In this document: piece by piece, positions 15,260 through 60,747 of the stretch
Numbering within the stretch: the first letter of the stretch is position 1
How the letters are laid out: every line of letters begins with the position of its first letter
Assembly (NCBI RefSeq): GCF_020595125.1
Contig: NZ_JACNMS010000001.1
Coordinates: 1 to 64,000, forward strand
DNA: 64,000 nt
Source: Jeotgalibacillus aurantiacus
GTDB taxonomy: Bacteria; Bacillota; Bacilli; Bacillales; Jeotgalibacillaceae
Direction: 5' to 3'
Position numbers and translations under genes: made by a program
Notes under the pieces: generated by a model
The model's database searches: none
What the model was told of the DNA's origin: nothing
The model's input: the letters and a program-made list of their open reading frames with translations, nothing else

Positions 15260-15354
15260 TGTCACCTGCTTTTACATCTATGGTAACGGCTATATTCGGC
15301 AATCCACTGCAAAAAGCCTGCAAATCCCTTAACATTTATCTTTCATAGAGTCTC

Positions 15355-15570
15355 ACTCATGTCGAAAGGCCATCACTTTCTGTCGCTAACTCATCCATTT
15401 ATGTCGATCTTCTTCCCATTTACGTCGCTAATCCAACGCTTTAACATCAAATTGTCATTAGCCACTCAACTTCTGTCGTTACATTAAAGATTCATGTCGA
15501 TCACACGCCACTTTCTGTTCTTAGGTCGCTAACTTCCTTTCTGTCGACCCGCTTCCATCCCGCCGTCGCA
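15355..15570 (-). repeat. Phased intergenic array, type A (minus orientation)
   Basis: In the 368-bp gap between the SDR gene and the crh terminator, the motif TTTCTGTCGCTAA (reverse complement of TTAGCGACAGAAA) recurs. TGTCG-like cores start at 15360, 15381, 15402, 15423, 15453, 15474, 15495 and 15516, spacing 21, 21, 21, 30, 21, 21, 21. A weaker core follows at 15563. The bases between cores are not conserved. Nothing else is seen in the gap. Confidence 0.85.
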
Positions 15571-15591
15571 CTTTCCGAACATCACATAAAA

Positions 15592-15619
15592 AACCCCCGC
15601 ACTCCTAAGCGCGGGGGTT
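15592..15619 (-). terminator. Terminator of the whiA-crh operon
   Basis: CCCCCGC and GCGGGGG arms with a 10-base loop. On the minus strand the stem is followed by a run of T, 8 bp after the crh stop codon. Confidence 0.9.
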
Positions 15620-15627
15620 CACCTCAT

Positions 15628-22064: not shown

Positions 22065-22279
22065 GTATAGCCTCCGTACGTTGTATTAACTTATCAATTT
22101 TAACATATTGACGGGAGGTTTTAAAGGTGATTGATTTTGTCATCTTGTAAAAGTGAGAGAACGGCGGAATAGAGTTAGCATAAGGCGTGTGGAGTGAAGA
22201 GCTGGTGAAGATAAGGGTGCGGGGACGGCGCTGCGATCAGGATTACTTCTTAACCTCCACTTATTCATTCGTTTCAGAT

Positions 22280-22432
22280 TTTATATCCTTCTTTCTAAAA
22301 ATCGTTCCCTTCTTTCTGGAATTTAATTCCTTCAAAGCAATTCCACACACCTTTTATCCCTTCATAACTTTCCAATATTCATTCACTTCGACCATACAAT
22401 TCCTTCACTTCCGAATTTAATTCCATCAAACC
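22280..22432 (-). repeat. Phased intergenic array, type B (minus orientation)
   Basis: In the 795-bp gap between the TPR gene and the his operon, CCTTC/CATTC cores of a degenerate ATTCCTTC motif start at 22287, 22308, 22329, 22359, 22380, 22402 and 22423, spacing 21, 21, 30, 21, 22, 21. The same motif on the plus strand reads GAAGGAATTAA. The spacing rule is the same as in the unrelated type A arrays. Confidence 0.75.
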
Positions 22433-22697: not shown

Positions 22698-22800
22698 GAG
22701 GGGCATCCGTAGACTCCTGTGGCGGAAAGGGACAGGTGAAACCATTGTGCGAAGCACAAGGGGTTCACCGCCCGGCCACGGAAAGCGGAGGATGCCCCTC
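22698..22800. repeat. Dispersed palindromic element, copy 1
   Basis: About 103 bp. Outer arms GAGGGGCATCC / GGATGCCCCTC are perfectly complementary. The inside shares GTAGACTCCTGTGGCGGAAA, CAGGTGAAACC, GTGCGAAGCAC, GGTTCACCG and CCACGGAAAGCG with copies 2-4. It could fold into one long branched hairpin. It lies just outside the his operon terminator. Confidence 0.85.
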
Positions 22801-29811: not shown

Positions 29812-29924
29812 GTGGCGGGGACATCCGTAGACTCCTGTGGCGGAAAGGGTCAGGTGAAACCGAGTGTGCGAAGCGCAGGCGGGTTCACCGCCCGGCCACG
29901 GAAAGCGTAGGGTGTCCCCGCCAC
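29812..29924. repeat. Dispersed palindromic element, copy 2
   Basis: 113 bp. Outer arms GTGGCGGGGACA / TGTCCCCGCCAC are perfect and continue inward with one wobble pair. The interior matches copy 1 closely (GTAGACTCCTGTGGCGGAAAG, GGTTCACCGCCCGGCCACGG), but the outer 10 bases differ from every other copy. Same gap as the type C array. Confidence 0.85.
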
Positions 29925-30919: not shown

Positions 30920-31034
30920 GGGTCTTTGACATCCTTCGCTTTCCACGGCCGCGCGGTGAGCCGGCTAATGCTCCGCATTACGCCGTCTCACCTGTCGCTT
31001 CTCTGCCGTAGGAGTCTTCGGATGTCAAAGACCC
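30920..31034. repeat. Dispersed palindromic element, copy 3 (inverted)
   Basis: 115 bp with perfect 15-bp outer arms GGGTCTTTGACATCC / GGATGTCAAAGACCC. Opposite orientation to copies 1 and 2. The internal segments GCTTTCCACGGCCGCGCGGTGA and CTCACCTGTCGCTTCTCTGCC are recognisable but more diverged. Located between the PrsA-like gene and bioY. Confidence 0.85.
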
Positions 31035-31078
31035 TTACATTATTAATTTGGAATGGAGTAAATGTGAATCAATAAGTT

Positions 31079-31196
31079 GGGCCGTTTCATAATTTTATTA
31101 TGAAATGATTCAAACATAATTTAATAACCAAGCAATACACTCTACAGCTTGGCGTGAACCCTTTCCGCCACAGGAGTCTCCGGATGTCAACGGCCC
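31079..31196. repeat. Decayed palindromic element, copy 5
   Basis: The right half (GTGAACCCTTTCCGCCACAGG followed by AGTCTCCGGATG) is well preserved. The left half is replaced by AT-rich DNA with its own small hairpin (TTTCATAA / TTATGAAA). The outer ends still pair: GGGCCGTT at 31079-31086 with AACGGCCC at 31189-31196. This makes it a partial copy next to copy 3. Confidence 0.6.
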
Positions 31197-31271
31197 TTTG
31201 TGATTTTTATTACTGTAGATGAAAATAAATATAAAGAAAATAATCCAAATACAATTGAGTATTCAAATGAA

Positions 31272-36671: not shown

Positions 36672-36753
36672 CCTCTCAATGTCTCACAAGCGGTTTGCTT
36701 GAATGATGCACTCTTCATGAATTGTCGGAACGCGAGCAGTACAATCTCTTTTC

Positions 36754-37452
36754 GACAATTCATACCGCTCTTACAACACATTCGATGCTTCTAGCGACAG
36801 AAATCTGCTCGCGATCACCATTAAAACTGAAGCTTGCGACAAGATCGCGCTTGTTTTAAAGGGAGTCGACATAAACAGCCTGGCGGTCGACAGAAAGCCG
36901 AGCGCTTTCAACAGAAATGACTCAACGATCAACAATTCGGTCCACAACCCCAAAACAAAACACCTTCTGTTTGTCACGCGAGCAGCGCAATCTCTTTTCT
37001 ACAATTCATACCGCTCTTACAACACATTCGCTGCTTCTAGCGACAGAAATCTGCTCGCGATCAACATTAAAGCTGAAGCTTACGACAAGATCGCGCTTGT
37101 TTTAAAGGGAGTCGACATAAACAGCCTGGCGGTCGACAGAAAGCCAAGTGCTTTCAACAGAAATGACTCAGCGATCAACAATTCGGTCCACAACCCATAA
37201 ACAAAACACCTTCTGTTTGTCACGCGAGCAGCGCGAGTTCTTTTCGACAATTCATACCGCTCTTACAACACATTCTTTCCTTCTATCAACAGAAATCTGC
37301 TCGCGATCAACATTAAAACTGAAGCTTATGACAAGACCGCGCGCTCTTACGACAAGGCCTCGCTTGTTTTAAAGGGAGGCGACATAAACAGCCTGGCGAT
37401 CAACAGAAAGCGTTGTCGTTACGACAGAAAATTCACGGCTTTTAACAGTAAT
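36754..37452 (+). repeat. Phased intergenic array, type A, in three 246-bp blocks
   Basis: Between the amidase and a small membrane protein gene (877 bp). Cores resembling GACAGAAAC recur every 21 bp, with one 30-bp step per block. Block starts at 36754, 37000 and 37246 are exactly 246 bp apart and nearly identical. In block 3 the cores are at 37246, 37267, 37288, 37309, 37330, 37351, 37381, 37402, 37423 and 37444; the unit at 37351 is one extra 21-bp unit absent from blocks 1-2. Stop codons interrupt most frames. Confidence 0.9.
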
Positions 37453-37506
37453 TTGATAAACCTTACATTCACTAAATAGTGCGTAGCATTTCATGAAGTG
37501 TCACAT

Positions 37507-37550
37507 AAAAAAAGGGATCAAACTCAATGTTGAGTTTGATCCCTTTTTTT
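37507..37550. terminator. Strong bidirectional terminator
   Basis: A near-perfect 44-bp palindrome: seven A, GGGATCAAACTCAA, a 2-base loop, then the complement and seven T. It ends both the array-side transcript and the minus-strand membrane protein gene. Confidence 0.95.
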
Positions 37551-37809
37551 ATGCCACGGTTTCTTTACTGGAGGACGAAAACCTCAGCTTTAACCCTACT
37601 GCCAGAATCCCAAGAGCACCAAGCAGACCGATACCGCCTACTGCCCAATAAAAAATCAGCAGGATCCATTTAAAAAACCCGATGATATCCGTATTCCATG
37701 TGAAAAGAGCCAGCACTGTAAACAGTACGCCTATTCCAAGCATAGAAGCTCCTACCGTTCCGAACCCGAACCACATGATTCTTTTAATAAACGTTTCCAC
37801 CCCGATCAC
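37549..37809 (-). CDS. Small two-span membrane protein
   Basis: A protein of up to 86 residues with two hydrophobic segments (about 15-38 and 45-74) and a Ser/Lys-rich tail. Unrecognised. Two GTG starts are possible: 37809, or 37800 behind AGGTGATCGG. It sits just downstream of the YvlB-like gene, where B. subtilis has small membrane protein genes of the yvl cluster, so an envelope-stress role is conceivable. Confidence 0.65.
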   Translation of the reverse strand: MIGVETFIKRIMWFGFGTVGASMLGIGVLFTVLALFTWNTDIIGFFKWILLIFYWAVGGIGLLGALGILAVGLKLRFSSSSKETVA

Positions 37810-44450: not shown

Positions 44451-44465
44451 ATCTTTTACAAACCC

Positions 44466-44576
44466 GGCCCGTCCTCATCCTCCGCTTTCCGTGGCCGGGC
44501 GGTGAACCCACTGTGCTTCGCACATCGGTTTCACCTGTCCCTTTCCGCCACAGGAGTCTGCGGATGAGGACGGGCC
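44466..44576. repeat. Dispersed palindromic element, copy 4 (inverted)
   Basis: 111 bp with perfect 15-bp outer arms GGCCCGTCCTCATCC / GGATGAGGACGGGCC. The interior is close to copy 1 in inverted orientation (GTTTCACCTGTCCCTTTCCG, GCCACAGGAGTCTGCGG). It lies between uvrB and the YfbR-like gene, next to the LexA-like box. The rest of the 503-bp gap shows nothing else. Confidence 0.85.
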
Positions 44577-44796
44577 TTAAATAGTTTCTTTCCCAAATAT
44601 ATTTATAGAAAAAATTCAGGAATTGATATTTACTAAATTTCGAAATCAGAAAAACATAAAAGCACACATACTTTAGCGCTGTTTCACTAAATCTTGCCAT
44701 CAGGCCACCCATTTAAACAAAATTAACCCTTTATCCCTTGTTTCGCGGGTTTTGTGGTGCTAATATAAGCTAAATCAGTTAACGGGGTGAAGGAAA

Positions 44797-48994: not shown

Positions 48995-49129
48995 CGTAAC
49001 GGTCCCCCTTTTTAGTCATCCTATGCCTTGGAAGAGAGAAAAAGACGGGTAGAGAATTTAGTGGCGTGTGGAAAAATAATAGAGATTATTGACTGCCGGA
49101 GTAGAGGAAGTATACCTGAGTGTTATTCT

Positions 49130-49330
49130 CCAGAGGTTAGTGATGGAATTAATTTCTGGAAAGAAGGGATTTCAGAGATTAATGAAGGAATCCGTCACCT
49201 CAAAAGAAGGAATTAGTGAGGCTCCTTGAGGTAGTGAAGGAATTAAATTTTCAAAACGAAGGAATCGATTTCTGGAAAGAAGGGATTAATTTTTCAAAAA
49301 CCTGAATAAGTTTGCGCAGTGATGGAATCC
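49130..49330 (+). repeat. Phased intergenic array, type B
   Basis: In the 434-bp gap between the M23 peptidase gene and the TlpA-like gene. GAAGG/GATGG cores of GAAGGAATTRATTTC start at 49142, 49163, 49184, 49206, 49236, 49258, 49279 and 49321, spacing 21, 21, 22, 30, 22, 21, 42. A 62-codon plus-strand frame overlaps part of it, without a convincing ribosome site. Confidence 0.75.
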
Positions 49331-54167: not shown

Positions 54168-54177
54168 CGTGACGTGC

Positions 54178-54610
54178 ATCAACAGAAACGGTCGTCTTAA
54201 CAACAGAAACATAACTGCTTAAGACAACTTTTAAGCTCCTTACAACAATTTAACCTGCTCTTTAAACATTATCGCTCTCGGTCTGAAACCGATTGACAGA
54301 ATCATCACCGCTTACGACCGAAACGCCGGCGCTTACGACAAAGATTAAACTCAACTGTTCAACAACTCACCAGCAAATTAATTAGCCACTCTCAAAAAAA
54401 GGCGACGCTAACTAACGTACTAACCGACAGTACAACACAATCAACAAAATTCATCTTCCTTTCAACAGAAACATCCTCTCTTACAACAACTTCTCAGCTC
54501 CTTACGACAATTCAGCCTGCTCTTTTAACATTATCACTTCCGCTCCCAGGCCGATCGACAGAAACATCACCGCTTACGACAGAAACGCCCACCTTTTCAA
54601 CAAATTGAAC
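54178..54610 (+). repeat. Phased intergenic array, type A, in two ~262-bp blocks
   Basis: Between yvjA and prfB (774 bp). First block cores are at 54181, 54202, 54223, 54244, 54265, 54295, 54316 and 54337, spacing 21 x4, 30, 21, 21. Second block cores are at 54443, 54464, 54485, 54506, 54527, 54557, 54578 and 54599, spacing 21 x4, 30, 21, 21. The two blocks are diverged copies of one another. Confidence 0.88.
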
Positions 54611-58551: not shown

Positions 58552-58603
58552 GAAAAGGGGGGATGGGTGTGGGTAAAGAAGGAAGAAGATTGCGTGAAAT
58601 TTG

Positions 58604-59230
58604 CCTTACGACAGAAAATCACCCGCGATCGACAGAAACCAGTTAAACATCAACATTCCGCCGACTCCTTCCAACAAAAAAACTCAACCTAGCGACAGTT
58701 TGAACCTGTTTGTGGAAGCCGATCAACAGAAACAACCGACTTTACAACAGAAACTTGCAAGCTAACGACAGATTGCTTTTTTGGTGTGTCGCAGGCTTAT
58801 TCGAGGGACCCCTGGTTAGTCTAACGACAGAAAATCACCCGCGATCGACAGAAACCAGTTAGCTATCAACATTCCGCCGACTCCTTCCAACAAAAAAACT
58901 CACCCTAGCGACAGTTTGAACCAGCTTGAGGAAGCCGATCAACAGAAACAACCGGCTTTACAACAGAAACTTGCAAGCTAGCGACAGATTGATTTGTTGG
59001 TGTGACGCAGGCATATTCGAAGGGCCCCTGGTTAGTCTTACGACAAAAAAACACCTGCGATCGACAGAAACCAGTTAAACATCAACATTCCGCCGACTCC
59101 TTCCAACAAAAAAACTCACCCTAGCGACAGTTTGAGCCTGTTTGTGGAAGCCGATCAACAGAAACAACCGACTTTACAACAGAAACTTGCAAGCTAGCGA
59201 CAGATTGCTTTGTTGGTGTGACACAGGAAT
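58604..59230 (+). repeat. Phased intergenic array, type A, in three 216-bp blocks
   Basis: Between secA and the NERD gene (882 bp). Blocks begin at 58610, 58826 and 59042, exactly 216 bp apart and almost identical. In block 1, GACAGAAAC-like cores lie at 58610, 58631, 58652, 58673, 58694, 58725, 58746 and 58767, spacing 21 x4, 31, 21, 21. The blocks also share a non-phased tail (TTGGTGTG...CCCCTGGTTAGT). Confidence 0.9.
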
Positions 59231-59293
59231 AAACTTGGGAACCTGGTTTGCGGCTCCATCCAAATTAGTGCGATCAACATTAAAATATCCTGT

Positions 59294-60271
59294 TTAACCT
59301 TTCTTCACAAAGTGAAGTGGGCTCTGAAATATAGACGGCCGTTGATTGCCCACCTTCGTAAGCTTCAATGGCTTAATCCTCTCCCCTGTATCCCGAATCG
59401 ATTTCATATCCAAAAACAGCTGAAGTTCACGCGTATTTGCATAATCTTTTAACAAAATAAAGTAGTCCATAACCGATTGTTGAAAAGCATCACCATTCCC
59501 CTCAAAACATGTCATACATTTCCAACCACCATGAACCATCAAAAGCCGCTGATGACACGATAGGCACAAAACGCCTGTTTTTATATCTTTTTCACTAATG
59601 GATAGCGATTCCAGTAGTGGTGTTCTCGTCGGTTTCACTGCTTTCCTCAACAAAAGACCTTTCAGATGATTCAATTCATTCATGTTCAACTTTTTATTTG
59701 GATAGATCTCATATAATTGCCGGATTTTTCGATTCAGCTTTTCAATACGAATGATTTTTTGATAAAGAAACAGTTCATTTTCTTTTACCGTAAACTTGAC
59801 CTTACTATTCGTATAAACAACCAGTTCAATGACTGGTATGCGAACACCGATCTCTGACAACAGCTGTTCGAGTCCGTCTTTATGTCTCTCCACCTGGGTA
59901 ACCGGACATGCAAAAAACTCCTCAACACCGCTGATAGAACGACTCATACCGCCTCCCTTATAGTCAAAGAACAGGGATCCTACCATATTTTTAATTTCAC
60001 AGATTAATATAAAATTGGGCGTAATAAATAGAGAGTCAATTTGGATGGGTTCTGAAAAAGCAAATAGGGTGATATTTCGTAGATTTACACAATGAGGATT
60101 TAGCAGCGGCTGTGTGATTTTGTCAAAATATTGTTCACCATGCAGGCCTGCTTCATGAGGGATAATTCTTTTAACAATCTCATGTTGGGAGGGGTGGTGC
60201 TCCGGCAATCGCCTTCGCAGCGCGAGTAATTCCTGATATTTTAACGATTCATTTCGCTCTGTAAAATGCAT
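59294..60271 (-). CDS. NERD-domain protein with zinc ribbon
   Basis: A 325-residue protein with a nuclease-related NERD domain at about 38-150: GLHGEQYFDKI, then IQIDSLFITPNFILICEIKNMVGSLFF, the Asp and Glu-x-Lys of a PD-(D/E)XK-like fold. Near 236-258 CLSCHQ and CMTC form a zinc ribbon. NERD proteins are of unsettled function and often appear in DNA-processing or defence settings. Here it is alone, between two repeat arrays. Confidence 0.8.
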   Translation of the reverse strand: MHFTERNESLKYQELLALRRRLPEHHPSQHEIVKRIIPHEAGLHGEQYFDKITQPLLNPHCVNLRNITLFAFSEPIQIDSLFITPNFILICEIKNMVGSLFFDYKGGGMSRSISGVEEFFACPVTQVERHKDGLEQLLSEIGVRIPVIELVVYTNSKVKFTVKENELFLYQKIIRIEKLNRKIRQLYEIYPNKKLNMNELNHLKGLLLRKAVKPTRTPLLESLSISEKDIKTGVLCLSCHQRLLMVHGGWKCMTCFEGNGDAFQQSVMDYFILLKDYANTRELQLFLDMKSIRDTGERIKPLKLTKVGNQRPSIFQSPLHFVKKG

Positions 60272-60354
60272 ACAACATCTCCTTTCTGAACTGATTCAAT
60301 TTTATTATTAATTCCATATTTATTCAATTATTTTAACGGAAAATTCTCCAAAAT

Positions 60355-60530
60355 ATCCATCAACAAAAATTCCATACAAATCAACAGAGATCTCTAACCT
60401 ATCAACAAAAACTCCCCACCTAGCGACAGCCTTTCCTCCTCTAACAACAAACTCCGCATCCGATTCACCTCTTACGACAGATCCTCGCTCTCTTACAACA
60501 GAAAAACGCCCCTTTACAACAATACCGCGC
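60355..60530 (+). repeat. Phased intergenic array, type A
   Basis: Between the NERD gene and the DUF1028 gene (476 bp). Cores at 60362, 60383, 60404, 60425, 60446, 60476, 60497 and 60518: six 21-bp steps and one of 30 bp. Best single example of the rule. A 70-codon minus frame runs through it with heptads like VVRGESD, without a ribosome site. Confidence 0.9.
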
Positions 60531-60717
60531 ACCCACTGTTACCCAAGACTTGCTTCACTGGACGCTGCGCTTGGATTAAGAACGGTGATATCCCGCTGTA
60601 GTATAGGTAGCTTGAGGAGATGTGCTCTAATCAGACAGAATTTCCCAATCATTTTGCGGACCTCAAGCTTTATTGTGTGGACCTCACCTAATATCTTTCC
60701 ACACAACAAAAAGAAAA

Positions 60718-60739
60718 CCGAACCCCATTAAGGATTCGG
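60718..60739 (-). terminator. Terminator of the GGT-CHR-DUF1028 operon
   Basis: CCGAACCCC / GGATTCGG arms (imperfect) with a T-rich tail on the minus strand, 8 bp after the DUF1028 stop. Confidence 0.75.
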
Positions 60740-60747
60740 CCACACTT

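Follow-up and report, generated by a model that had tools for sequence, protein, structure and literature searches.

Intergenic repeats of the REP/BIME type are present in many copies at gene ends and avoid promoters. The genome paper of Bacillus subtilis 168 is said to describe 190-bp repeats that are confined to the origin-side half of the chromosome. Plasmid iterons and the ParR/parC and TubR/tubC centromeres are direct repeats arranged in blocks, on which the bound protein forms a higher-order complex, and the inverted ends of Tn7-type elements carry a few sites each, as direct repeats of 20-22 bp. Noc-binding sites (NBS) in B. subtilis and SlmA sites in E. coli are described as dispersed by the dozen and under-represented near the terminus (PMC4726725).

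The arrays of Jeotgalibacillus aurantiacus resemble Noc and SlmA sites in that they too are dispersed in dozens and depleted at the terminus, with 1 of 37 loci, among the matches listed, on the contig C2. However, the NBS has a 14-bp palindromic consensus, whereas the sites here are non-palindromic and stand in phased direct rows of about eight. Because Noc and SlmA sites are palindromic, membership in either group is not claimed for these arrays. As in the REP/BIME group, the arrays are extragenic, near gene 3' ends and not between divergent starts, but in place of a hairpin palindrome they consist of a row of phased sites with a non-palindromic matrix. MITEs and insertion elements have terminal inverted repeats, and among the 25 longest inverted-repeat pairs here none bounds an array. 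The 190-bp repeats of B. subtilis, going by that description, are alike in length and in their confinement to the origin side. Iterons and the ParR and TubR centromeres are found next to their own gene on a replicon, whereas the arrays are present in dozens of chromosomal copies without a common neighbour family. The direct repeats of Tn7-type ends are of like length, but the Mu-type transposase domain PF09299 is absent from eight array-bearing genomes of the genus. A search of the open-access literature returned no description of such arrays, which is not proof of absence.

The window analyzed here, 64,000 nucleotides in length, is the start of contig C1 of the J. aurantiacus genome (G000; 3.51 Mb in 19 contigs). 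A sister species of the same genus (G004) serves for comparison. The window contains the following features.

15353 to 15529, minus strand: array of eight cores at 15519, 15498, 15477 and 15456 and, after a step of 30, at 15426, 15405, 15384 and 15363, that is four plus four, not five plus three (steps of 21 three times, 30, 21 three times); aligned to locus L243 of G004.
36744 to 36941, plus strand: array, first of three tandem copies with a 246-bp period; five cores, a step of 30, four cores.
36990 to 37187, plus strand: array, second of these three copies (246-bp period); five cores, a step of 30, four cores.
37236 to 37454, plus strand: array, third of these three copies (246-bp period); six cores, a step of 30, four cores, with cores from 37246 to 37444 (21 five times, 30, 21 three times).
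54171 to 54347, plus strand: array in the gap downstream of prfB; five cores, a step of 30, three cores, starting from 54181 (21 four times, 30, 21 twice).
54433 to 54609, plus strand: array in the same prfB downstream gap, closer to prfB; five cores, a step of 30, three cores, starting from 54443 (21 four times, 30, 21 twice).
58600 to 58777, plus strand: array, first of three tandem copies with a 216-bp period; five cores, a step of 31, three cores, starting from 58610 (21 four times, 31, 21 twice).
58816 to 58993, plus strand: array, second of these three copies (216-bp period); five cores, a step of 31, three cores.
59032 to 59209, plus strand: array, third of these three copies (216-bp period); five cores, a step of 31, three cores.
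59294 to 60271, minus strand: gene for a NERD-domain protein (Pfam PF08378), between two array sites.
60355 to 60530, plus strand: array of eight cores at 60362, 60383, 60404, 60425 and 60446 and, after a step of 30, at 60476, 60497 and 60518 (21 four times, 30, 21 twice).
60651 to 60688, plus strand: two units of a second 21-bp family, ATTTTGCGGACCTC / TTATTGTGTGGACCTC.

All core positions and steps given in the original prediction for six arrays, including the 31-bp step of the array from 58610, are present in the sequence. Its list was correct for the arrays it named and incomplete, having missed the tandem copies with cores at 36754-36931, 37000-37177, 58826-58983 and 59042-59199 (periods of 246 and 216 bp). 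The segment from 58575 to 60537, which contains two array sites and the NERD-domain gene, measures 1963 bp in the window and 167 bp in its G004 counterpart by blastn. The orthologous gap in G004 contains a different 21-bp array, with the core CACACAATAAAGACCTCG. It is in this gap that G004 has a longer run of the ATTTTGCGGACCTC / TTATTGTGTGGACCTC family. A third run of repeats at about 21 bp, with the word GAAGGAATTAATTTCTGG, occurs in the window at 49128-49299 and 22229-22430 and is inverted between both sites; an array of TTGAAGG-CTATG in another genome of the genus (G009, L219:2060-2280) is somewhat like GAAGGAATTAATTTCTGG.

The core had been proposed to be GACAGAAAC, which is too short: a weight matrix built from 206 distinct units gives the 14-bp non-palindromic sequence gCTATCRACADaAA, followed by about 7 bases without information. 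Within it, the eight cores of the array from 60362 read CAACAA, CAACAG or CGACAG. When 28 non-redundant arrays with a 30-bp step are aligned, conservation begins sharply at core 1 and fades past core 8, with a weak ninth core. The variable base is G in cores 1, 3, 6, 7 and 8 and A in cores 2, 4 and 5; AtTt follows core 5 and tAAAc follows core 6. Within the 30-bp step, conservation is only weak. Not all arrays are of the five plus three type, since the array at 15.36 kb has four plus four cores and some others have a ninth or tenth core. The linkers are unrelated between loci. The idea that spacing is the conserved property, taken by itself, is not supported, as the core sequence is conserved too.

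A template of five cores at 21 bp, a step of 30-32 bp and three cores at 21 bp was applied to 179 kb of J. aurantiacus DNA, consisting of the window and 27 stretches fetched for their core patterns. It found 46 non-overlapping arrays, with none in three shuffles, and the long step was 30 bp in 39 of them, 31 in six and 32 in one. (The array at 15.36 kb is outside these 46, as a five plus three template misses four plus four.) When the long step was varied from 21 to 45 bp, there were 63 raw template positions for a step of 30, 7 for 31 and a single one for 32, and no other step had more than 2. In G004, 20 non-overlapping arrays fit five cores, a step of 30, 31 or 32, and three cores. Matrix matches on the same strand form 51 pairs at lag 21 in the window, as against at most 2 at any lag from 10 to 130, and at most 1 at lag 21, in 50 Markov shuffles of it, the matrix having been trained on these same arrays.

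Arrays confined to the window, or no genome-wide excess at 21 and 30 bp, had been named in the original prediction as results that would speak against it; neither was seen. The two-core pattern CTAWCRACADWAA-N9-TAWCRACADWAA, allowing at most two mismatches, has 111 matches in the genome and 0 when reversed, and in G004 the figures are 40 and 0. An earlier three-core pattern gave 102 matches in the J. aurantiacus genome against 14 for the reversed control. In 20 stretches picked without regard to arrays (240 kb), no lag outnumbered lag 21, but it shared first place and had only four pairs, eleven of these stretches being from contig C2, where arrays are rare. A single viral contig also matches this two-core pattern; two of its units are clear and a third is possible. 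A looser contig scan returned at least 115 stretches, and many of those listed are, by eye, simple or coding repeats. Five Bacillaceae loci from it were inspected: L077 is a coding repeat, and L047, L068, L076 and L110 are array-like. For G058, a more distant genome of the same order, coding 7-residue repeats were considered as an explanation and rejected because there is a stop in the frame read and 31-bp steps break the frame.

The 21-bp pitch supports the earlier suggestion that the motifs occupy one face of the helix. Steps of AA/TT have a power of 0.38 at 10.5 bp and of 0.12-0.15 at 9, 12 and 21 bp, a comparison between periods only. An intrinsic phased bend, which had also been suggested, is not supported, because the curvature predicted for 28 arrays with a wedge model does not exceed that of shuffles (mean z of 0.14, with 3 of 28 below -1.5).

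Orthologous arrays of J. aurantiacus and G004 were paired via blastn matches, and 12 of 46 arrays in the former and 11 of 20 in the latter are alignable. In the arrays defined in J. aurantiacus, the ACA differs at 8 of 278 sites (2.9%) and core positions -5 to 7 at 114 of 1206, as compared with 136 of 648 (21%) in the linkers (p = 1.8e-11, core vs linker). Arrays defined in G004 give similar figures, with 6 of 264 sites differing in the ACA, 105 of 1135 in the core and 121 of 613 in the linker, and ascertainment therefore does not explain the low core divergence. On this comparison of sequences, the cores in alignable orthologous arrays are under purifying selection. Two large length differences correspond to whole 21-bp units; one is of 42 bp, and in the other, which involves the array at 37236-37454, alignment gaps of 7 and 14 sum to one unit. 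Small indels are present in other orthologous arrays, and one of these, L173, has many.

The arrays had been said to lie between operons, and their placement between genes is borne out. Among 34 array rows of J. aurantiacus, 16 are in convergent gaps, 18 in co-directional gaps and 0 in divergent gaps, whereas the sampled stretches contain 78 gaps of 150 bp or more, of which 10 are convergent, 51 co-directional and 17 divergent. Fisher tests give 0.0014 for the divergent class and 0.00018 for the convergent class, and 0.0027 and 0.0006 once neighbours are merged into 31 rows. L172 is not among the 34 rows, as it matched the pattern but has no chain of four cores. When template arrays are merged into sites, 0 of 30 in J. 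aurantiacus and 0 of 19 in G004 are divergent, with open reading frame (ORF) cut-offs of both 75 and 100 residues; one further G004 site, beyond the 19, is at a stretch edge. Single gap assignments may be wrong, since ORFs were called with a simple script. Other 21-bp families are included in a word-free scan of relatives, where 6 of the 46 gaps that bear arrays are divergent, compared with 49 of 259 overall (p = 0.31), and the avoidance of divergent gaps is shown for the gCTATCRACADaAA family only. In the 18 co-directional rows, the array is 20-265 bp upstream of the start codon by the ORF script, with one at 851 bp. Arrays have both orientations relative to genes, and 9 of 24 are on the leading strand relative to replication. 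The genes flanking J. aurantiacus arrays have no common family, barring one 21-residue match.

The further claim that arrays are outside terminators holds at the sites inspected: at 15591-15620 and 60716-60741 a scanned terminator lies between the gene end and the array. Hairpins past prfB and at 37504-37553 were seen only as sequence or as an inverted repeat. In a terminator scan of three window stretches, terminator-like counts were near those of shuffles except in the stretch from 15.2 to 15.9 kb.

GC skew in sampled stretches places the origin within 0.91-0.98 Mb of C1 and the terminus within 0.28-0.36 Mb of C2. Contig C2, where the skew switches, makes up 26.6% of the genome, and its single locus out of 37 among the matches listed is fewer than expected (P = 0.00015). 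The 37 loci, with tandem copies merged, are all those of C2 and a lower bound for the last contigs, and at least six of them are known from the pattern match alone. A palindromic dispersed repeat of the same genome, CCGNAGACTCCTGYGGC ... GCCACGGAAAGCG, occurs in the window at 22704-22794, 29815-29918, 30920-31203 and 44464-44577. It has 173 genome matches with at most one mismatch and 0 in the control. Among the 100 matches listed, all exact, 47 are on C2 and 19 on C1 (Fisher, 4e-7), a distribution opposite to that of the arrays.

A related array type can be followed along the 3.52-Mb contig of another genome of the genus (G007), where skew places the origin at the ends and the terminus at about 1.67 to 1.85 Mb. 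Its 48 centre motifs (control 0) form 37 clusters. The terminus-centred third contains 1 of these (6e-6), or 3 with the terminus placed at 1.85 Mb, and the central 40% contains 5. There is no depletion in the terminus-centred half, which contains 16 of the 37 clusters because of a dense stretch at 2.42-2.66 Mb. It is this stretch, not the origin, where matches are densest; it is the prfB region, which is dense in J. aurantiacus as well. With the boundaries of the depletion chosen after inspection of the data in both genomes, the terminus is avoided, yet the distribution is no simple origin gradient.

In a word-free intergenic scan of the 20-kb prfB region in 11 genomes of the genus, 21-bp arrays are present in seven; no arrays were found in those 20 kb of G001, G002, G003 and G010. 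Across the 11 regions there are 15 matches at lag 21 and 45 at 23 other lags together, about two per lag. The words differ between genomes of the genus, and include CACTACCGTCG, TTGCTACA, TACGACCTTCG, CACTACAGCTG, GAAATGTAGAACA and others. G007, G008, G009 and G011 have differently worded arrays with a common centre, CCCGGGTGTATC, where the step is about 22 bp by manual count. Among 199 sampled genomes of the order, this centre is frequent in this genus only, with 5 to 20 matches per strand in G006, G009 and G011 and at most 3 per strand elsewhere. In the gap downstream of prfB itself, arrays in G000, G007, G008, G009 and G011 have four different words, as read by eye, and the G004 gap contains decayed cores and the palindromic repeat, also by eye. 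No array is present in this gap in G001, G002, G003, G005, G006 or G010, and in G001 and G010 (L226 and L227) a different repeat, GCAGACCGCTGAGAAACGCTCGCATTCTTCGTTGC..., is found there. In three of the genomes, G007, G008 and G011 (L220:13976-14194, L221:13267-13484 and L241), a conserved imperfect inverted repeat lies between tandem arrays and reads, by manual reading, CATGCACTTGGGAAAC-loop-GTTTCTTAAGGGCATG.

More distantly within the order, G058 has 21-bp arrays of YTACAACTG, with 104 three-core matches against 0 in the control, and 21-bp arrays are also present in G032, with ATTCAACAGTA, and in G015, with TTTCGACAA. Two G058 loci, L291 and L263, have long YTACAACTG arrays with a strict 21-bp step, and in L291 two linker kinds alternate, giving a 42-bp super-period. 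Array loci are also found in Viridibacillus soli, Neobacillus mesonae and Bacillus sp. FJAT-27251 and FJAT-29814. In the Neobacillus array, a single 19-bp step separates two sets of four cores, and a 19-bp step also occurs once in the FJAT-27251 array, where the others are 20-21 bp. On manual reading, CNACM is present on one strand in most of these words. A single genome can have several 21-bp families, and core words shift fast between close species.

Non-palindromic sites that all point one way, with a two-turn pitch, free linkers and one three-turn step, suggest a protein that binds head to tail in a row on one face of the DNA and accepts set distances only. It is possible, if short of probable, that each element is a protein-binding array of about 170-200 bp through which the chromosome outside the terminus is organised or marked. 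In such a model, a putative protomer, or a domain of an oligomer, would read each 14-bp site, and protomers would stack head to tail, two helical turns apart, on one face of the DNA. The single three-turn step of 30-31 bp would split the complex, usually into an arm of five sites and an arm of three or four. Because arrays are near gene ends and rare around the terminus, the complexes would most likely organise or mark the remaining chromosome, and they could fold it, segregate it or time division, as Noc and SlmA sites do. The combination of core selection, free orientation, gene-end position and terminus avoidance points to a task at the level of the chromosome rather than of the gene. We thus infer the bound protein, its oligomeric form and its chromosome-level role from the geometry, the core selection, the placement of the family and the terminus depletion. 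An architectural or segregation protein had been among the first suggestions; purifying selection on the cores and the terminus depletion fit it, although the analysis identified no such protein.

The leading alternative is an intergenic repeat, selfish or neutral and REP- or MITE-like, that survives near gene ends and avoids promoters, its cores being read by its own replication or transposition machinery. This is somewhat unlikely, but much about the arrays is compatible with it. They undergo tandem duplication with periods of about 216-250 bp, their presence differs between close species, and divergent gaps are avoided. The position-specific base preferences suggest descent from one element. 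There are several families per genome, and the fast change of core words fits a selfish or an arms-race element equally well. However, linkers are unrelated and yet the alignable cores are under purifying selection, which dead copies would not show. Of 166 inverted-repeat pairs in the window, none of the 25 longest bounds an array, although shorter ones may; a single pair among the 25 touches arrays, linking two of opposite orientation that are 21.7 kb apart. There was no sign of an element with a gene of its own, and the flanking genes share no family beyond the one 21-residue match. Moreover, the terminus depletion is not shared by the palindromic repeat of the same genome.

Alternatively, the arrays may be sites at which DNA gyrase or another topoisomerase wraps DNA strongly, located downstream of genes where they would absorb transcription-driven supercoils in the manner of BIMEs. 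Their position at gene ends and between convergent units, the helical phasing with AA/TT power at 10.5 bp, and a length of about 170 bp with an interrupted middle would agree with this. Nevertheless, the model is improbable, as base-specific conservation of ACA every second turn exceeds what wrapping needs, core words vary between species and predicted curvature is not raised.

Arrays of sites for a Tn7/Mu-type transposase (TnsB), whether as relic ends, decoys or target-immunity islands, are very doubtful. The unit does resemble Tn7 end repeats, and two Tn7-like elements of relatives adjoin repeats of about 20 bp, but at both of these elements, in G010 and G058, the repeats have other letters. 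All sites of an array point one way. The Mu-transpos_C domain (PF09299) is found in 0 of 8 array-bearing genomes (G000, G004-G009 and G011) and in 2 of the 4 genomes of the genus without arrays in the examined stretch. The two Tn7-like elements (L319 in G058 and L320 in G010) are beside glmS-like genes, with the repeats of about 20 bp between; the G010 element has a TnsA protein and the G058 element a TnsD-type protein.

A regulatory array, serving as an upstream activating or silencing site for a transcription factor, can be given no greater weight: the 18 co-directional rows are upstream of a start codon, but 16 of the 34 rows are between two gene ends and none is between divergent starts. 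Least probable of all is a transcribed element, such as a repetitive small RNA, a 3' UTR structure or part of a terminator, since position near gene ends is offset by the occurrence of both orientations relative to genes, by 0 Rfam matches at gathering score in the window, and by exact 21/30-bp steps with free linkers, which would suit duplex DNA better than single-stranded RNA.

Returning to the protein-binding array, related species have a like ruler with other core words. A broader model, which we consider unlikely, is a Bacillales-wide address system in which fast-evolving head-to-tail proteins would read arrays of six to ten sites with a 21-bp pitch and a special central step. Each species or paralogue would have its own CNACM word marking the chromosome outside the terminus, and the word would be swapped as the site and the ruler persist.

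If the arrays are indeed bound in this way, they would represent a chromosome-organising site system of which we found no description, and the shape of the protein complex could be predicted from its strict geometry. The genus and its relatives would provide a natural series of species in which the word has changed and the ruler has been kept, and it would become directly testable what marks the chromosome away from the terminus in bacilli besides B. subtilis. Even if the arrays prove to be selfish, helically phased sites as the conserved parts would make them an unusual kind of intergenic repeat.
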